Source: an uncultured bacterium (GTDB lineage Bacteria > Bacillota_I > Bacilli_A > RFN20 > CAG-826). From it: a DNA stretch of 53,303 nucleotides. The notes below the pieces were generated by a model that saw only the letters and a list, made by a program, of their open reading frames with translations, had not been told where the DNA came from and ran no database searches. The stretch spans positions 1-53,303 of the forward strand of contig CASGDR010000009.1 of assembly GCA_949300345.1 (NCBI GenBank). The letters run 5' to 3'. Of the stretch, positions 40,617 to 53,303 are shown piece after piece (the stretch's first letter is position 1; each line of letters starts with the position of its first letter). Both the position numbers and the translations under genes were made by a program.

Positions 40617-40880
40617 TTTTCATCTATCAAAAACCCTTGCCCAATGCGGGATGGATTAGGTATTTGGTTCGGGAATAAGTTCGGTATTATCGGGCTTTTT
40701 GGCCCCCTAATCCCTTTACGGGAAGAGGATAGGGGCCTAGAATATCGCTGCAGGCGAAAGCGCTGTATACCCGCGATCGGCGAACCCTTGTTTAAGCGCC
40801 GTGATCCGGTGCCGCCCGCGGGGGCCACGCAAGTGGCTTATATTTCCCGATCAACCCTGATATCCATAAAAGGAGGCAAG
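40617..40880 (+). other. Structured leader or unknown RNA before the DUF3800 gene
   Basis: 264 bases without a credible protein gene; an open frame runs through but its product is Arg/Pro-rich and unlike a domain. Two strong folds are visible: GGCCCCCTAATCC (40701-40713) with GGATAGGGGCC (40727-40737), and GCCAC-GCAA-GTGGC (40824-40837) with a GNRA tetraloop. No riboswitch class I can name fits. It may be a cis-acting leader or a separate small RNA. Confidence 0.4.
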
Positions 40881-43777: not shown

Positions 43778-46494
43778 ATGGAGAAAGAAAAGAAAAAAGG
43801 CGAAGAGGAATGGCATTCATCGTCAAACAAGCGGTCGATGATGTTCCAAACCACGGACGAAGAAGCCGACTTTTTGACTTGGGCTACTGCTTTTCCCTTG
43901 GGCGAAGCGCCTCTCAAAGATGTTTTCGACAATTCATATTTCAAGAATAACGAGCATCCGGAACTCCGCATTCTCGCAGATTCCTTTTTCATTGATTTGC
44001 CCCTAATCGATGGTTTGTCCGAGGAGGGGAAATTTATTGGCGATCCTTATAAATTGGTTTTGGAAAGATTTCCTTGGCTTGAAGGAAAAATATCTTGGCA
44101 TTCCCTTGCCCCGTATGTCTTTCATAGGTTTGCTTATAGTGTCCGCAATAAGGCATTTTCTCTCGATTATCAGGACAAGATTGTTTTGGAAAGAGCCAGA
44201 AAGGCCTATGGAATCTGCAGGCGGGTCATCGAAAAGGCGGGTTCCTCCAAGAAATCAATCGAGAGGATAGACCTTGAATATGAAAGGGAACTCAAGCGAA
44301 GCGTTCCTTCATTCGTTTATGTTTTGGGAACCTATTACGGCCTAAAATGCGTTGAAAACCCAGAACTAAGTGAATACGCGGAGGCCTTGGTCTATGCTTG
44401 GTCGGAGAGATTCAACGAAGTCGAAGACCTTGCCTATAGCCTTATTCACGGCTTGGTAGACCGTCCTAGGGAAGGGCCTTATAGCGATATAGAACAGGCA
44501 GTTGCCGCAAATCTATCGCTAAGTAGCCCTATAAGCCTTATGGGATGCCATCTTGAAAAAGTGTGCATTGGAATCTTTTTAGCTGGCATTTTCCCTGCAA
44601 AAACCAATGGAAATGATGCCAATCCCATGAAGAAGATTATTCTCAATCTCAAGGAAATCGGGGAGTGCTTTGATCTGGGTTTCTTTCCCCAAGCCATGAA
44701 ACTCATATTGCCAAAGCGCATCGATGGGAAGATTTATACGCTTGAAAAGATCGGCGTCGAACTAGGCATTACACGGGAGAGAGTCCGACAGAAGGCTATG
44801 AAAATTAGAAATCTTTTGAGGACCAACCGTCTTGCGAAGGATACCTACGATTTGGTTATTGCCTCGTTTCTAAAACTTTTCGGTGCCGATGCTATCGTGG
44901 CATTGGAGACGGTGCGACAAAAATTCGCCGATTATCCCTTGCTTGCCGATATCCTGGTGTTGATCGTTTCTTCCTTTTCGCGTGATGATGACACGGAAGA
45001 TCTTTTGCCCGGGATTTTTTACGTAGGCCGCAGTGGATTCATTCAGATGGATCCCTATGATGGTTATTCTCAAGATCTATTGAAAAGACGGGCCGAAGAA
45101 ATGAAACCGGATTATTCCATGGACGAAATTCAAGTCCTTTGTGAAAACGAACGGATCTTTTTGACCCATTCCGGGAAATTACGTTCAATGGGGGAAGGGT
45201 ATTTGCGAAATGGAACCAATGAAGGAAATCTCATCTTGAATCTTATCGAACATGGTTTTCCCAACGGCTATCGCATATACAACAGCGATGACTATTCCAG
45301 GTTCGTTGCTCTTTGGAAGAACTGCTACGGCGAGAGAGAGTTGCCTAGCCAGAATACCGTGAGGGGTTTGGTGGGCAGGAAATGGGCGAACGTAGACAAA
45401 GGTACCTATTTGCCGAGAAATGATTCCCTTTCCATTCCGGATGATTTGTTAGGGGAAATGCAATCTTTCGCAAAACAGTACGAACCAGTCATTTACTACA
45501 TTAGCCTTTTTGAGGAGTTCAAAGAGGATCTCGAGGATTTGGACATCAAAAACGCCAACCAGATGAAATGGCTGTTCGATAGGCAGGACCATTGTTTCGA
45601 ACATTTGCGCGGATATATTAGGAAAAAAGGTGCCGGAATCACCGCTGTCGAGTATCTCGATCTCATCCTCTTTGATATAGAAGGTATCTTCACCATAGAA
45701 GACATCAGGAAATATCTGCCGCATCTTCCGGAATTCACTTTCCTGAATGCAATCTCCAAAACGGATTCCATCATGTCCTTGGGAGATGGAAAATATGTCA
45801 ATTGCCAAGATTGCTTCAATGGAGGAGAATTGTCGCCGCTGTTTCGGGAAACACTCAAGAACGAGATAAAGATAGCCTTGGCAAAGTCTTTGAATTCCCA
45901 GATGTCAGTCCCGGCCCTATATGGGCTTTCATAACCATCTATTCGCATTTGCAAAAGGAATTGAAGAAACTGGATTCCCCACGGGGCTTCGCAGTGGCTA
46001 TAAAAAGCATATGCAAGAGGAAATATTCGATATCATGGCCCTTTCTTACCCCACATGGCGTTGAAAGCGTCAATTCCATCGGCTTCATAGTCGATTATGT
46101 ACGGTCCAAGAAAAGCGTGACTGCCGATGAAATAAACAGCTATGCGCTTATAAATGGGGTAAGGCAGATTGGGTTCATCGATATATTTGAAATGGTTTCA
46201 GAAGGCTATGTGATGCTAGAAAAAGGAAAGGTATTTTCAAAAGACATCGTTGCCATAGACCAAGCGAAAATAGCAAAGGCCCGGACGGAACTGCAGTTTT
46301 ACCTATGTAGTTTCGGCGATATCGATAGCGAACAATTCCGCGGATTCTCTTCCCTGCCTATGATTGGGTTCAAATGGGATGTCGTATCCCTTTTGGGGTT
46401 TGTGATGAGCTATTGCAAGGATACGATTGAGTATCAAATCTACAAAAAGGACTATCGTTTGCCGATTTATAAGCTTCGGATAAAACGACGCTAG
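43778..46494 (+). pseudogene. Large sigma-70-region-4-like HTH protein, split by a frameshift
   Basis: The frame from ATG 43778 runs 718 codons to TAA 45932-45934. The -1 frame takes over at the same place (FITIYSHLQKELKKLDS) and runs to TAG 46492-46494. Joined after LYGL, the product is about 905 residues. Near 321-345 it has TLEKIGVELGITRERVRQKA, close to sigma-70 region 4 (the -35-binding HTH), but regions 2 and 3 are absent. Later parts have winged-helix-like segments (GIFTIEDIRKYLPHLPEF, VTADEINSYALINGVRQIGF). Restoring one T in the CTTTC run at about 45924-45928 would rejoin the frames. The gene is AT-richer than its neighbours upstream and lies next to the CRISPR locus. Function unknown; it may be a phase-variable, decayed or misassembled gene. 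Confidence 0.6.
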
Positions 46495-46880
46495 ATACAC
46501 TTTTCAACGATATAAACTTCCGTCATAAAACAACGAAAGACATTTAAGAAAAAATCATAAGAAGATTCGCGCCCATTTCCTGCAGGGAGGTTTTTCAAAT
46601 CCTTCAAGCTTGGTGTAATGAGGTTCGTGCAGTTTTCGAAGTGTCTCGACAGATTGGATTAGGGATAATAAAGGAGATGACCTCCTACCGTAATGGCCTA
46701 TTCGTGATAAAGAAAGAGGAGGGCACCACAGGGAAATAGCAAGTGCAAGCATAGCCGCTTTCAAAGGGAGGTTTCAATTTTCTGGGTTCTCAGGAATCGT
46801 TTCCCAATCCCTGGCCTTATGGGATTATCGAAATTCCTTTCCGCGCAGGACCTTGGGGGTCTACCAAAGCTTAGGCAGGG
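46495..46880 (+). other. Intergenic region, no gene recognised
   Basis: About 390 bases between the HTH protein and the cas locus. Only very short frames occur, for example ATG 46677 with 20 codons (SYRNGLFVIKKEEGTTGK). These could be remnants. I see no repeats or clear RNA structure. Confidence 0.4.
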
Positions 46881-46884
46881 TCGC

Positions 46885-46890
46885 TATAAT
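46885..46890 (+). promoter_or_regulatory. Possible -10 box of the cas9 operon
   Basis: A perfect TATAAT 132 bases before the cas9 ATG, without a convincing -35. If used, transcription starts near 46897 and the cas9 leader spans the whole tracrRNA region in antisense. Confidence 0.4.
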
Positions 46891-46909
46891 TCACATACAC
46901 ACCGAGTGT

Positions 46910-46995
46910 AAAAAAACTCCCTTCCGGGAGGTGCGCGGCGATCGCGCTACGAGGGTTTGGCTAGTGCTTATTTGAACCAAGTCTTGCTAAAACCA
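46910..46995 (-). ncRNA. tracrRNA, antisense to the cas9 5' leader
   Basis: Read on the minus strand, this opens with an anti-repeat (GGTTTTAGCAAGACTTGGTT), then CAAATAAGCACTAGCC, which parallels the nexus entry of the S. pyogenes tracrRNA, a GCGCG/CGCGC hairpin, and the terminator CTCCC-GGAA-GGGAG with seven T bases (46930-46910). Against the CRISPR repeat at 53268-53303, the lower stem is TTTGA/TCAAA, a bulge follows, and the upper stem includes 12 perfectly matching bases (46980-46991 versus 53275-53286). The predicted transcript is about 82-86 bases. It guides RNase III processing and Cas9 loading. Confidence 0.88.
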
Positions 46996-47000
46996 CATTC

Positions 47001-47029
47001 ATGTTAGAAGGAGGCACAGAGAATGTCAA
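47001..47029 (-). promoter_or_regulatory. tracrRNA promoter overlapping the cas9 start
   Basis: On the minus strand: TTGACA (47029-47024), 17 bases, TAACAT (47006-47001), with a predicted start near 46994, exactly at the anti-repeat. The -35 covers the last two bases of the cas9 ATG and the spacer covers its ribosome site. Confidence 0.8.
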
Positions 47030-50000
47030 TCGGGCAAAAGTCGAAGAAATATTATTTGGGATTGGATATCGGAACCGAATCAGTGGGTTTTGCCGTTACC
47101 GACCAAAATTACCATCTTATCCGGAAGGCCGATAAACACCTTTGGGGTGTACGTCTCTTCCCGGAAGCCAATACCGCCAAGGAGAGGAGAACCAACCGCG
47201 CTTCAAGAAGAAGATTGGAAAGAAGGCGCTACCGCATCGAACTTCTTAGGACGATTTTCCAAGATGACATCGCAAAACTGGATTCGACCTTTTTCCAGAG
47301 GCTGGATTCAAGTTTTGTTACCGACGGAACCAAAAACCCGCCGTTGATCTTTCCTGAAGACAAGAACGCGGAAAAGAACTATTATCGGAATTTTCCTACC
47401 ATTTACCATCTAAGGAAACATTTTATGCAAAGCGACGAACCTGCCGATCCGCGCCTCGTTTATCTGGCTATTGCCCACATTATCAAATACCGTGGGAACT
47501 TTCTCCAAGAAGGGGAATTAGGCGGTAAAGGCGGCCAGCTCGATTCGCTTATTTCCCTATTCGAGCGTTTGGATTCGGCCTTGGTTCCGTTGGCGGAAGA
47601 AGACCAGGATCCGTTACAGTTCAAAGTCACGAAGAAGCAAGCCTCCTCCTTGCTAGCAGTGTTCCAGGGTTCGAAAGGCAAAAAGGAGCGTCTGGAAGAA
47701 ATCAAAATCATTCTTGGCATTGATAAGAAAGACAAAGCCAAGGAAACGATCTGCTCTTGCTTCAACGGCAATGAAGTAAAGGCTTCAAAGTTATTCCCGC
47801 GCTTGCTAGAAGATGCCGACTTTGCGAAAACCAGCCTTCCTTTTGCCAAAGAGGAATTCGAGGACGAACTTGACAAACTACCGCTTGGCGAGGACGAAAG
47901 GGATCTCGTTTTGGTTCTCAAGGAAATCTATGACACCAGGGTTCTCAATCATCTTCTTAAGGGAAAGGAATCGCTTTCCGAAGCCATGGTCGATATTTAC
48001 GATGAGCATCGCAAGGACCTTGTTGATCTGAAGTCGTTGTTGATCCGCATTTATGGAAAGAAGAGCCAGAAGGTCCAGCAATTGATGAATGGTTTGGGGG
48101 ACGATGCCCTCAGCTATGCCAGATATGTCGGTACCGCGCTGGAGGGGAAGGACCGCCATCCGATTTCGTTGCCCAAGATGTCCGAAGCCGAATATGGCAA
48201 GTTCTTCAACGCCATCAAGGATGCATTGCATTGTGAAACATATCTTTCCGGCGAGCTTCCCTCTGGTCTTCCGGTTTTGGATGCCAGCCAAAGCAAGGCT
48301 CTCAAGCGCATCGCCGAAAGAATCGAATCAGGTGACTTCCTTAGGAAGCAGAACAACAAGTCGAATGGGGTTCTCCCATACCAGCTCAACCAAAGCGAGC
48401 TTGTCGCGATCATCGAGAAACAATCCAAATACCTCCCGATATTGGCAAAAAAAGCCAAAGGCTATCCCAATCCAGAAAAGGAAGAATACGAACTTGTATC
48501 CCTGCTGAGGTTCCGGATTCCCTATTATGTCGGCCCCCTCGGAGGGGAAGGCAAAAACCATTGGGCCGTGTTCAAGGAAGAAAAAGCGAAGGTCACTCCT
48601 TGGAATTTCTTCGATATTGTCGACGATAGGGAATCCCAAAGGAAATTCATCGAAAACCTCAAGAACGGCTGCGCTTACCTTCTTGGCGAGACCACCTTGC
48701 CGAAGTTTTCTTTGGTCTATCAGGCTTACTTGATCCTAAATGAGCTCAACAACCTTTCCGTCGAAGGGCTCCCCATTGCTTTCGAGGATAAGGAATACCT
48801 GATCGAAAATGTTTATCTAAAGAGCCGCAACGTCGGAATCAAAGCCCTGAAGGATGCCTTGAAATCCAAGTATGGCCGTCCGATTAGGATAGGTACCAAA
48901 AAATCCGATGACGAGGAAAAGGTTTCCGATATCCTGAAGACATCCTTTGGCACCTATCATGATCTGATTCCGGTTTTCGGGGAAGGCTTCATCCATGATA
49001 TGGATAAGGCTAGTTTGGCCGAAAAGGTCATTGAAGCCTTGACCGTATTCGAGGATCAAAGAACCAAGGAAGCCCAATTGCGCTCGCTCGGATTTGCCGA
49101 TAAGAACCTAAGTGTCCTCCTGCGCCTTCGCTACAAGGGCTGGGGACGCCTATCAAGAAAAATTCTCCTATCGGTCCATCCGGCCAAACCTTGGGTTGAT
49201 GGCCAAACCGGGGAATTGCTGTCCGACTCCATAATTATGGCCATGTGGAAAACCAACATGAATTTCATGGAGATATATGCCGACCCCGAAAAAGGGTATC
49301 TGGAAGAGGTCAAATCCCTAAATGATGCCTATGTTGCCGAACACAACATGGATCTCGAGGAATACATCGACGAGGCCAGAACTTCTCCAGCCATGAAGAG
49401 GTCTTTGAGGCAGACCATCAAGGTCGTAAAGGAACTTCAGGACATCCTCGGTATCGATTCCTTTGACAAGGTGTTCGTGGAGACTACTCGCGAAAAAGGA
49501 GAAAAGAAAAGGACCTCTTCTAGGAAAAATATGATTTCCGAGGCTTTGGGCGCCGCCAAACAGGTTTGCCGCGAAGAAGCGGAAATGCTCGCCAAGGAGC
49601 TGGATGGAAAGACGGACACGCAGTTGAAGGACAAGCGCCTGTTCCTTTATTTCATGCAACTTGGACGCGATGTATATACCGGCAAACCAATCGATTTGGA
49701 AAGACTCGAAAAAGACTATGATATCGATCATATAATCCCCCAGGCCATGCTAAAGGACGATAGCTTTAGCAACATGGTCTTGGTCGCTTCTTCCAAAAAC
49801 CGCGCGAAAGGGGACGAATATCCCATTCCTAAAGGCATCCTGGAAGCCGAAGGCCACGAATGGATCGAAAAACTATCAAAGATTTCCATGGGCAATAAGG
49901 GATATATGATGCCTCCAGGAAAAAGGGATAGGTTGCTTAGGTCCTTCAATAACCCGCTCAGCGACGAGGAAATGACCGGTTTTGTAAATCGACAGTTAGT

Positions 50001-51333
50001 GATGACCAGCCAGTCGGCCAAGGCGGCCTGCGAAATTATCCAAGGCCTTTACCCAAACGCTGAAGTTGTGTATTCGAAAGCCCGCTTGGTAAGCGATTTC
50101 CGCAACGAGTTCGGACTATTGAAAGTACGCGAACTCAACAATTTCCACCATGCCAACGACGCCTACCTTAACATAGTGGTTGGCAACGTGTACAGCGAGC
50201 GGTTCTCCTCGCGGATGACTGCCAAATTCCTTGAATACCAGAGGCAGAAGGACCCGAACTATTCACTCAAGACCAATGCTTACAACGTGTTCAAAGCCGA
50301 TAGGCAGAACCGGGCTAGGGACGGTTATATTTGGTATGCCGGAACCAAGGACAAAGAAAGCGGCAAGTGGTCGGGAGGCAGCTATGAAACGGTAAGGAAG
50401 GTCCTTTCCTGGAACGACCCAATGGTTTCGAGAATGCTTTATACATCCCCCGGCTTGTTCAACAAGGTATCGATTGCTCCCAAGGGACAGAAAATCCTGC
50501 TTAAGCGCAAGCAAAGCGGGCCCTATGCCGTGGAAAATAGTGCCGATCTCTATGGCGGATACAAGGATTTGACCATTCCGTATTTCGTTTTGGTCGAGAT
50601 TAAGGGAAAAGGAGGGAAGCTATCTTATTCCTTGGAAGGAATCCCAATGATCTACATCAAAGCTGCCGCCTCTTTGGAAGATGCGGTCGCGGAATATCTA
50701 GGTACCCGTGATTTCAAGATCATAATCGAGAAAGTCCTAATCAGGACGATTATCGAAATGCCTACCGAAGATCCGAAGCATCCTGTTAGGCTAGCTATTT
50801 CCGGAAAGACCGGAACTTCCATCATCTGCATAAACCTGACGGAGCCTAGGCTTTCCTTGGAACAGTCTCTTTATCTAAGGGACATCTGCAAGCTTTTGGG
50901 TACAAACTTACCGCCTGCCGAAAAACCGAAGCTGGATGCATATCAGGATGTTCCTTGCGACGGGGAAATCCGGTTCAAGGGCATGGTTTTCAATGCCAAA
51001 ATGAATGATGAACTATACTCGGCCATAACAGCACTTTGTGCGCTTCCATGCTATGGCTGCATACCCGGAATCTCAAATTCATTGAGAAAAATCGATGAAA
51101 TCAAATATGTGTTCCAAAAACTTTCCCTACTGGAACAGATTCGTGTTATTCAAAGACTCTATACCTTGTTAAGTTGTAAATCCGTTCAACAGATCGACCT
51201 AAGACCACTTGGCTTATCGAAAAATGTCGGAGCTATTACGATAAGCAAGAACTTGAAACCAGGCATCAAAATCAAGGCAGTCTCCTCTACCGGTTTCTAT
51301 GAAAGGGTGGTCTTCACGATTCCAGGAGACTAA
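47023..51333 (+). CDS. cas9: Cas9 endonuclease (type II-A)
   Basis: RNA-guided DNA endonuclease, 1436 residues, slightly longer than SpCas9. RuvC-I is at the N-terminus with Asp15 (YYLGLDIGTESVGFAV), then the Arg-rich bridge helix (ERRTNRASRRRLERRRYRIE). RuvC-II has Glu820 (VFVETTREKGEKKR), HNH has Asp902-His903 (DYDIDHIIPQAM), and RuvC-III has His1043 and Asp1046 (NNFHHANDAYLNIVVGN). All catalytic residues are present, so it should cut both strands. The last 250 or so residues form the PAM-interacting region. AAGGAGG at 47008-47014 sets the ATG. cas1, cas2 and csn2 follow without gaps, defining subtype II-A. The gene is AT-richer than the housekeeping part, suggesting transfer. Confidence 0.98.
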   Translation: MSIGQKSKKYYLGLDIGTESVGFAVTDQNYHLIRKADKHLWGVRLFPEANTAKERRTNRASRRRLERRRYRIELLRTIFQDDIAKLDSTFFQRLDSSFVTDGTKNPPLIFPEDKNAEKNYYRNFPTIYHLRKHFMQSDEPADPRLVYLAIAHIIKYRGNFLQEGELGGKGGQLDSLISLFERLDSALVPLAEEDQDPLQFKVTKKQASSLLAVFQGSKGKKERLEEIKIILGIDKKDKAKETICSCFNGNEVKASKLFPRLLEDADFAKTSLPFAKEEFEDELDKLPLGEDERDLVLVLKEIYDTRVLNHLLKGKESLSEAMVDIYDEHRKDLVDLKSLLIRIYGKKSQKVQQLMNGLGDDALSYARYVGTALEGKDRHPISLPKMSEAEYGKFFNAIKDALHCETYLSGELPSGLPVLDASQSKALKRIAERIESGDFLRKQNNKSNGVLPYQLNQSELVAIIEKQSKYLPILAKKAKGYPNPEKEEYELVSLLRFRIPYYVGPLGGEGKNHWAVFKEEKAKVTPWNFFDIVDDRESQRKFIENLKNGCAYLLGETTLPKFSLVYQAYLILNELNNLSVEGLPIAFEDKEYLIENVYLKSRNVGIKALKDALKSKYGRPIRIGTKKSDDEEKVSDILKTSFGTYHDLIPVFGEGFIHDMDKASLAEKVIEALTVFEDQRTKEAQLRSLGFADKNLSVLLRLRYKGWGRLSRKILLSVHPAKPWVDGQTGELLSDSIIMAMWKTNMNFMEIYADPEKGYLEEVKSLNDAYVAEHNMDLEEYIDEARTSPAMKRSLRQTIKVVKELQDILGIDSFDKVFVETTREKGEKKRTSSRKNMISEALGAAKQVCREEAEMLAKELDGKTDTQLKDKRLFLYFMQLGRDVYTGKPIDLERLEKDYDIDHIIPQAMLKDDSFSNMVLVASSKNRAKGDEYPIPKGILEAEGHEWIEKLSKISMGNKGYMMPPGKRDRLLRSFNNPLSDEEMTGFVNRQLVMTSQSAKAACEIIQGLYPNAEVVYSKARLVSDFRNEFGLLKVRELNNFHHANDAYLNIVVGNVYSERFSSRMTAKFLEYQRQKDPNYSLKTNAYNVFKADRQNRARDGYIWYAGTKDKESGKWSGGSYETVRKVLSWNDPMVSRMLYTSPGLFNKVSIAPKGQKILLKRKQSGPYAVENSADLYGGYKDLTIPYFVLVEIKGKGGKLSYSLEGIPMIYIKAAASLEDAVAEYLGTRDFKIIIEKVLIRTIIEMPTEDPKHPVRLAISGKTGTSIICINLTEPRLSLEQSLYLRDICKLLGTNLPPAEKPKLDAYQDVPCDGEIRFKGMVFNAKMNDELYSAITALCALPCYGCIPGISNSLRKIDEIKYVFQKLSLLEQIRVIQRLYTLLSCKSVQQIDLRPLGLSKNVGAITISKNLKPGIKIKAVSSTGFYERVVFTIPGD

Positions 51334-51336
51334 ACA

Positions 51337-52218
51337 ATGGCGTTTAGGGTGGTCAAGGTCAATAGCCGTTGCAAGCTTGAGACAAGTCTTGGCTATCTTG
51401 TCTGCCGTACCGATAAGGAAATCCGCATATTGCTCGATGAAATTTCAGTTTTGATCATCGAGAATCAACAAGCCTGCCTTACAAGCGCATTGGTTTCGGA
51501 ACTTATGCTGCGAAAAATCCGCTTGGTTTTCTGCGATAAACAGCACAATCCCCAAGGCGAGGTCGAACCTTACCATGGCTGTTTCGATAAATTGGCAAAG
51601 ATAAAAATCCAAACCTCTTGGAAAAAACAGATCAAGGATTTGCTTTGGAAAAAGATCGTTGTCCATAAAATAGGGATGCAGGCCAATGTTTTGCGCTTGC
51701 GCCTCGAAAATAGGGTCTATAACACTCTGCTGAAATACATGGGAGAAGTCCTGGAAGGGGATACGACCAACCGGGAAGCCTTGGCAGCCAAGGCTTATTT
51801 CTCTGCTTTGTTTGGCAACCAGTTCGACCGCAACGACGATTTCAATCCAAAGAATGTATTCCTCAATTATGGATATTCCTTGATTTTAAGCGGTATAAAC
51901 CGGGAAATTGCCGGTTTCGGCTACCTTAATCAACTTGGAATCCATCATATAGGGGAACAGAATCCTTTCAATCTTGGCTGTGATTTGGTCGAGCCTTTTC
52001 GCCCCTTTGTGGATTTTAGGGTTGCCAAAGCCGATTTGGATTTCAATAACTATAAGACCAATCTTCTGGCACTGCTTTCCGAAGAGATTAAATTCGGAGG
52101 GAAGAACATGATATTGTCCAATGCTTTCAGACCATGGGTCCAAGCTTGCCTTTCATTTATAAACGAGAAGTCAACTTTGCCGTTGCCTTCAATAGAGATA
52201 AACGATGGGGCTATATAG
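51337..52218 (+). CDS. cas1: Cas1 spacer integrase
   Basis: A 293-residue integrase that, with Cas2, inserts new spacers at the leader end. The metal ligands are Glu147 (TTNREALAAKAYF), His204 (LGIHHIGEQNPFN) and Glu219 (CDLVEPFRPFVD), matching SpCas1 Glu149, His205 and Glu220. It starts three bases after cas9 and overlaps cas2 by 14 bases, so the operon is tightly coupled. Confidence 0.96.
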   Translation: MAFRVVKVNSRCKLETSLGYLVCRTDKEIRILLDEISVLIIENQQACLTSALVSELMLRKIRLVFCDKQHNPQGEVEPYHGCFDKLAKIKIQTSWKKQIKDLLWKKIVVHKIGMQANVLRLRLENRVYNTLLKYMGEVLEGDTTNREALAAKAYFSALFGNQFDRNDDFNPKNVFLNYGYSLILSGINREIAGFGYLNQLGIHHIGEQNPFNLGCDLVEPFRPFVDFRVAKADLDFNNYKTNLLALLSEEIKFGGKNMILSNAFRPWVQACLSFINEKSTLPLPSIEINDGAI

Positions 52219-52528
52219 ATATATGCGATCACTTCTTATGTTTGATTTGCCGACAGAGACGGCAAAACAAAGAAGAGCCTATTCCAAATTTGTCAAATAT
52301 CTCAAAGGGCAGGGATTTCTCATGTTCCAGGAAAGCATCTATATGAAGCTTTCCATCAATGAATCGGCCTCAAAAGGCGTTATGGCTGCCGTCAAGCAAA
52401 ACCTGCCGCCGGATGGTTTTGTGGCGGTATTGACGATTACTGAAAACCAATTTGCTGGGATCGAAATTCTGTTAGGGGATTTTCAAACCGATGTAGTCCA
52501 TGATGATTCGAGGGTAGTGGAACTATGA
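52205..52528 (+). CDS. cas2: Cas2
   Basis: A 107-residue ferredoxin-fold protein that bridges Cas1 dimers in the integration complex. The opening GLYRYMRSLLMFDLPTETAK aligns with the type II-A Cas2 start (SYRYMRMILMFDMPTDTA in S. pyogenes), which supports ATG 52205 rather than 52223. ESIYMKL and the strand AVLTITENQFAGIEILLG follow. It overlaps cas1 by 14 bases and csn2 by 4. Confidence 0.95.
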   Translation: MGLYRYMRSLLMFDLPTETAKQRRAYSKFVKYLKGQGFLMFQESIYMKLSINESASKGVMAAVKQNLPPDGFVAVLTITENQFAGIEILLGDFQTDVVHDDSRVVEL

Positions 52529-53196
52529 AAAGGATGAAGTTTCCCAGTATTAGGCAGGAGTTATTGTTTGACCGCAAGACGGTGCCACACTTGATTATCG
52601 AAAACCCGGCGCTATATCGTGACATTGCCAAGCAAATGGTCGAACAAAGTGAAGGAATCGACGAATATTTTGTTTATGAGTGCAATGGGAAGAAAGGTGA
52701 TTTTTCCAAGGATGCCTTCCTTGTACTCAGTCCGTTCCTGCAGCTTCTCGATGACAAAAAGGAAGCTGCGTTAATTCAGAAACAGCTGGCAGTCTCTGCC
52801 AAACAAGACCAGAAAGATCGTTATTACTCGATTCTTGGTGAGATTTCCAATTTTGTAAGAGACCTTTCTCTGGATTATCCCGTCCCGGTATCTGTTGACT
52901 TCGAACTTGGGCTTAGTGCTTTTCTTAAAGCAGTAGGAGTTCAACCGATTAGAACAAACGAAGCCTTTTTGAATGAATTTATCGATTCGATTAAACAGAT
53001 GTCGGTCACTCAAAGAAAGTCCCTTTTTGTGATTTTCGAAGCAAGGTCCTTTTTGGAATCATCGGAAATCGAAACGTTATTTATGGAATCCTTATCCCTT
53101 GATTGTGATTTGCTTTTGGTTTCCAGTCATTTATCGCCGAGCCAGCTGCGATACGAAACTAGAATTCTCGTTGATCACGATTTGTGTGAATATTGA
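52525..53196 (+). CDS. csn2: Csn2 adaptation protein
   Basis: A 223-residue protein of the Csn2 family, which forms a tetrameric ring on DNA ends and is needed for spacer acquisition in subtype II-A. Sequence similarity is low, but the pattern fits: DFELGLSAFLKAVGVQPIRT near 132-151, MSVTQRKSLFVIFEARSFLE near 166-185, and LLLVSSHLSPSQLRYETRIL near 198-217 correspond to the helical and Rossmann-like segments of S. pyogenes Csn2, with the same length. An in-frame ATG at 52534 is possible. Its presence defines the subtype. Confidence 0.9.
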   Translation: MKRMKFPSIRQELLFDRKTVPHLIIENPALYRDIAKQMVEQSEGIDEYFVYECNGKKGDFSKDAFLVLSPFLQLLDDKKEAALIQKQLAVSAKQDQKDRYYSILGEISNFVRDLSLDYPVPVSVDFELGLSAFLKAVGVQPIRTNEAFLNEFIDSIKQMSVTQRKSLFVIFEARSFLESSEIETLFMESLSLDCDLLLVSSHLSPSQLRYETRILVDHDLCEY

Positions 53197-53267: not shown

Positions 53268-53303
53268 GTTTGAGAGTCTTGCTAAAGCCATAATCTCTCT
53301 GAC
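53268..53303 (+). CRISPR. First type II-A CRISPR repeat (array continues past the window)
   Basis: A 36-base unit starting GTTTGAGAGTCTTGCTAAAG and ending CTCTCTGAC, ending exactly at the window edge. It is recognised by its length, its position after csn2, the GTTTGAGAG start typical of type II repeats, and its pairing with the tracrRNA anti-repeat. The ends form an imperfect palindrome (GAGAG with CTCTC). With a single copy visible, spacers cannot be seen. Confidence 0.75.

Follow-up and report, generated by a model that had tools for sequence, protein, structure and literature searches.

A tracrRNA gene nested head-on in the predicted leader of a type II-A cas9 operon of an uncultured Bacillota bacterium, with its promoter over the cas9 start

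Among type II CRISPR-Cas loci, the orientation and the position of the tracrRNA gene vary, and both are conserved within clades (PMC7606464). A closely comparable arrangement has been described in Streptococcus agalactiae, in which the promoter P2cas starts at the 3' end of the tracrRNA and is sufficient for cas transcription without P1cas; in those CC-17 strains that are without P1cas, cas transcription depends on P2cas alone, which is enough for immunity, and a recent evolutionary origin has been suggested for it (PMC12216829). In Streptococcus pyogenes, Pcas is the target of a long tracrRNA (tracr-L) that works as a natural single guide (PMC11417352, PMC8616872). More generally, the control of overlapping transcripts by collision and by RNase III is an established mode of regulation (PMC7154746). 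What is at issue is how bacteria without tracr-L hold Cas9 low and matched to the tracrRNA.

The DNA analysed here (the window, 53,303 nucleotides from a gut bacterium with a genome of 1.05 Mb that also encodes RNase III) carries, according to profile matches, a type II-A CRISPR-Cas locus with cas9, cas1, cas2 and csn2 in one operon and a repeat (Table 1). The CRISPR array resumes where contig 1 of this genome begins and has 46 repeats there, the last of which is degenerate (GTTTGAGAGTCTTGCTAAAAAAGCTC, L048 1-3061), and the 36-nt array repeats are matched by the anti-repeat of the tracrRNA, as expected for type II-A. No alternative start fits cas9, since the RuvC motif LGLDIG lies at most 11 codons downstream of the ATG. 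Control of the locus by its own spacers was rejected, 0 of the 45 spacers of contig 1 matching 46701-47200 over at least 11 bases. Upstream of cas9, a 718-aa frame with a match to sigma-70 region 4 (43778-45934, plus strand) overlaps a 230-aa frame (45802-46494, plus strand) that has weak relatives in frames of 836-851 aa (G136, G145, G148); the two frames probably represent a single gene interrupted by a frameshift, or else a sequencing error. A DUF3800-I RNA (RF02969) was found above its gathering score at 40743-40848 on the plus strand.

Table 1. Coordinates of the features of the type II-A locus in the window.
Feature	Position	Strand	Basis or remark
Probable cas9 promoter, -10 box TATAAT, P2cas-like	46885..46890	+	Predicted start near 46897
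Predicted leader of the cas9 mRNA, complementary to the entire tracrRNA	46897..47022	+	Predicted from promoter position
tracrRNA gene	46910..46994 (ends approximate, about 85 nt)	-	Promoter, anti-repeat and terminator
Intrinsic terminator hairpin CTCCCGGAAGGGAG	46917..46930	-	Followed by T7 at 46916-46910
Anti-repeat	46970..46997 (transcribed portion probably to 46994)	-	Pairing with the CRISPR repeat
tracrRNA promoter, -10 box TAACAT	47001..47006	-	Promoter scan
cas9 Shine-Dalgarno AAGGAGG	47008..47014	+	In the -35/-10 spacer of the tracrRNA promoter
tracrRNA promoter, -35 box TTGACA	47024..47029	-	Inside cas9 codons 1-3
cas9	47023..51333	+	1436 aa; TIGR01865, 788 bits
cas1	51337..52218	+	TIGR03639
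cas2	52205..52528	+	TIGR01573
csn2	52525..53196	+	TIGR01866; defines subtype II-A
First CRISPR repeat	53268..53303	+	End of the window falls inside it

The tracrRNA gene adjoins cas9 on the opposite strand at a distance of less than 30 nt, with about 26 nt from the anti-repeat to cas9. The minus-strand elements that the earlier note had read from the letters, namely a TTGACA-N17-TAACAT promoter (47029-47001), an anti-repeat and a terminator ending at 46910, are all present in the sequence, and the head-on layout that it described, in which the tracrRNA promoter covers both the ribosome site and the start of cas9, is found as well. This promoter matches the consensus at 10 of 12 bases and is the sole strong sigma-70-type site reported near cas9 by the promoter scan; a TTGACA-N16-18-TANNNT motif turns up in 0.2% of dinucleotide shuffles of the same 100-base stretch. 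The computed repeat:anti-repeat duplex reaches -33.9 kcal/mol and shows the lower-stem bulge of type II-A. When the anti-repeats of 61 antisense loci were ranked by their pairing with each repeat, the best partner of the window repeat was its own anti-repeat, and across these loci the own anti-repeat had a median rank of 1 and was among the top 3 in 54 of them. Judged by this pairing and by the rank of 1 among 61, the tracrRNA of the window is real; a search of the window against Rfam gave no tracrRNA match.

As in the type II-A locus of S. pyogenes, the tracrRNA gene lies in front of cas9 in antisense orientation, and repression of cas9 by a long form of the tracrRNA, serving as natural single guide, could be envisaged on this ground. 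Hallmarks of this control are a second promoter further upstream that yields the long form, a fold-back element resembling the repeat, and an 11-nt 5' guide for a PAM-adjacent site of the cas promoter. However, no fold-back repeat-like element was found upstream of the anti-repeat (score of 26, for a shuffled maximum of 29), and the first 70 nt of cas9 contain no second minus-strand promoter scoring above 4.2. Such autorepression is therefore very improbable here, in agreement with the earlier note, which had set the locus apart from S. pyogenes. Control in the window, if any, would operate via opposing transcription, whereas in S. pyogenes it operates via Cas9 bound to the promoter.

Relatives of Cas9 were gathered from the same order and from named Bacillota genomes. 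Two classes were distinguished, class A, with the tracrRNA antisense upstream of cas9 (27 loci including the window), and class B, with a co-directional tracrRNA (11 loci); after addition of the named genomes the antisense set comprised 78 loci. Comparison of the layout in related genomes, an avenue suggested by the earlier note, revealed a minus-strand promoter between the anti-repeat and cas9 with a score of at least 8 in 69 of the 78 antisense loci and of at least 10 in 62, the weights of the score being rough values; 2.7% of the shuffles reach a score of 10. At the equivalent position, a score of 8 was reached at 1 of 88 other gene starts in the same loci and in 1 of the 11 class B loci. 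The -35 box of this promoter is located at -14 or nearer to the cas9 start in 32 of the 78 loci, most commonly at -7, between the Shine-Dalgarno and the ATG, and in 31 loci the Shine-Dalgarno is within the promoter spacer. In other loci the box lies 20 to 200 nt upstream, giving a whole range from +2 to about 200 nt upstream (the start codons in L106-L178 and the terminators were placed automatically, a few of them doubtfully, e.g., in L092 and L122). Since this distance varies, the exact overlap with the start codon is not conserved as such, and by these counts overlap of the tracrRNA promoter with the cas9 start is common and not required.

In the Cas9 tree, the window belongs to a clade of 22 rows (support of 100) in which the antisense orientation is found throughout. 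The nearest row, L049, is 50% identical and has the same -35 box over ATGTCAA; the gap from anti-repeat to ATG in the window is the second shortest among all loci. The same layout is present in further Bacilli sampled across the phylum, Listeria monocytogenes has a tracrRNA in antisense orientation some 100 nt ahead of cas9, and the antisense order is kept across a wide divergence of cas9 in both Clostridia and Bacilli. The sequence and the comparison together show the tracrRNA, the placement of its promoter on the ribosome site and initiation codon of cas9, and the conservation of this layout. The class B loci (L062, L063, L065, L067-L072, L075 and L077) come from the same family and form a single clade of the Cas9 tree, which suggests that the tracrRNA gene was turned round in that clade. 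In the collected material, cas9 is split in L005/L012 (G034:C30) into two matches that lie some 700 bases from each other, and L200 (NZ_LR134400.1, 593 kb), named Listeria plasmid 3, carries rplM, rpsI and truA and hence looks like a piece of chromosome. The pCAGO sequence (L199), which is without the native upstream region, was dropped as a yardstick for native S. pyogenes.

On the cas9 strand, the TATAAT noticed earlier as a potential -10 box does exist, and the plus strand of 46495-47022 holds no other perfect copy (0.9% of shuffles contain one per 51-base stretch), but the -35 of this box is poor (CTACCA, spacer of 18) and the box is absent from the report of the strict promoter scan. No plus-strand terminator was found in 46400-47100, so that read-through into cas9 from upstream is also possible; whether transcription comes from this TATAAT or from upstream, the cas9 mRNA would carry the complement of the tracrRNA. 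At the DNA level, only G052 among 224 family genomes matches across the tracrRNA and the cas9 start, which makes a close phylogenetic footprint of 46885-46890 impossible. On the cas9 strand, -10 boxes were counted in the 50 nt that follow the tracrRNA 3' end and, for comparison, in three bins lying more distally. A perfect TATAAT was found beyond the tracrRNA 3' end in 26 of 72 cases compared with 25 of 211 further up (p=1e-5), an extended -10 in 24 of 72 compared with 11 of 211 (p=9e-9) and, in the clade of the window, a perfect TATAAT in 8 of 21 compared with 1 of 63 (p=4e-5), the loci being mutually related and the p-values taking no account of this kinship. The minus strand of the same bins showed no comparable excess of perfect or extended -10 boxes. 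Strong -10 boxes at the tracrRNA 3' end are present in 36 of 67 loci with a short gap (the expected place is without one in the other 31) and in 0 of 5 with a gap above 140 nt (p=0.05, likewise regardless of kinship); in L167, one of the long-gap loci, a good candidate for the cas9 promoter is found within the gap instead. Taken together with the layout of the minus-strand promoter, this enrichment indicates that transcription of cas9 probably traverses the tracrRNA gene head-on, and it lends support to the claim made earlier of a leader antisense to the whole tracrRNA. The comparison also supports a cas9 promoter just past the tracrRNA 3' end in the window (TATAAT at 46885), like P2cas of S. 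agalactiae.

A cas9 start within the gap between the anti-repeat and the ATG would produce a leader without tracrRNA overlap. This may be the case in L089, L090 and L092, whose gaps contain TTGGAC-17-TATAAT or TGGACT-17-TATAAT; in these three loci the plus-strand TATAAT and the minus-strand -10 of the tracrRNA overlap, the opposing promoters sharing bases. In the window, by contrast, the plus strand of 46901-47022 holds no TTGnnn-N16-18-TAnnnT match and the gap is among the shortest, and we regard a start in the gap as improbable. Another explanation is compact packing, in which the overlap saves space in a small genome and the two units barely affect each other. It would agree with the widely varying distance from the tracrRNA -35 to the cas9 start in relatives, with the reversed tracrRNA of class B and with L167, its long gap and its possible own cas9 promoter. 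It accounts poorly for an antisense order retained over such a divergence of cas9, and two promoters that face each other at about 100 bp would be expected to interfere; packing without regulation is in our opinion rather unlikely, though far from negligible.

The reading that we prefer is that of a working type II-A locus with a tracrRNA gene that sits head-on within the cas9 operon leader, a distal cas9 promoter and an interference that would keep Cas9 low, to which as a whole we give a probability of about 0.6. In this mechanism, the near-consensus tracrRNA promoter would face a weaker cas9 promoter at about 100 bp, and RNA polymerase sitting at or leaving the former would block, or collide with, transcription of cas9. 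The interference would result in a low level of Cas9 and an excess of tracrRNA with no need for tracr-L, and a leader:tracrRNA duplex cleaved by RNase III could add to it. The regulatory effect on Cas9 is what we infer from the arrangement of the sequence.

The pairing of the two RNAs might, on the other hand, be the main effect, the RNase III-cut duplex making the leader a sponge for the tracrRNA, or the tracrRNA a trigger of leader processing. Folding of the leader with the tracrRNA, also suggested by the earlier note, gave -179.5 kcal/mol jointly, compared with -33 for the leader and -24 for the tracrRNA alone, with complete complementarity over about 85 nt, and the Shine-Dalgarno is predicted to be more open after a cut of the leader at 46995. 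An RNase III gene is present, and cis-encoded antagonists of small RNAs that are cut by RNase III are known (PMC8687705). Nevertheless, the tracrRNA does not extend as far as the ribosome site of cas9, it should outnumber the leader and be bound to Cas9, and the complementarity, a result of position, does not speak for selection; pairing as the main effect is thus unlikely. The repeat-like segment of the leader (46971-47000) that had been proposed as a decoy repeat is real, but it is the complement of the anti-repeat and brings no independent information; such a stretch arises automatically opposite any anti-repeat, and for this reason the decoy was rejected as evidence.

Since S. agalactiae has a proven cas promoter where the tracrRNA gene ends, the window represents a variant of a known arrangement. 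The likeness would consist of a cas promoter at this place and of cas transcription head-on through the tracrRNA, both predicted in the window, where the TATAAT is correctly placed in spite of its -35 and where boxes are enriched in relatives. S. agalactiae differs in having a separate promoter for a long tracrRNA, usually P1cas as well, and control by CovR, and its tracrRNA-to-cas9 region measures 280-389 bp, far more than the anti-repeat-to-cas9 distance of the window, which has neither a near cas promoter nor a long form and in which the tracrRNA promoter overlaps the start of cas9. The excludon (PMC7154746) is similar in having an mRNA leader antisense to an opposing gene, which in the window is predicted from promoter positions, with collision and RNase III cleavage possible; it differs in that the opposing gene of the window is a short non-coding RNA wholly within the leader and that both products serve the same machine.

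With respect to the open-licence literature, what looks new is how widely the layout occurs, that it does without a nearby cas promoter and without tracr-L, and that the promoter of the tracrRNA covers the start of cas9. That many Bacillota have -10 boxes at the corresponding site suggests that the P2cas-like position is widespread in the phylum, in contrast with the recent origin proposed for S. agalactiae. It is possible, although we lean against it, that head-on nesting with a P2cas-like promoter is the default type II-A layout in Bacillota, in which transcriptional interference sets the Cas9:tracrRNA ratio and to which streptococci later added the P1cas/tracr-L circuit. Native cas9 leaders put into other hosts may, as a caution, bring an antisense tracrRNA with them. 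Head-on transcription may limit the amount of Cas9, and a conserved head-on layout would then be a control circuit without any extra factor, testable by a few point mutations; the distal promoter of S. agalactiae would become one case of a widely shared layout and not an invention of that species.
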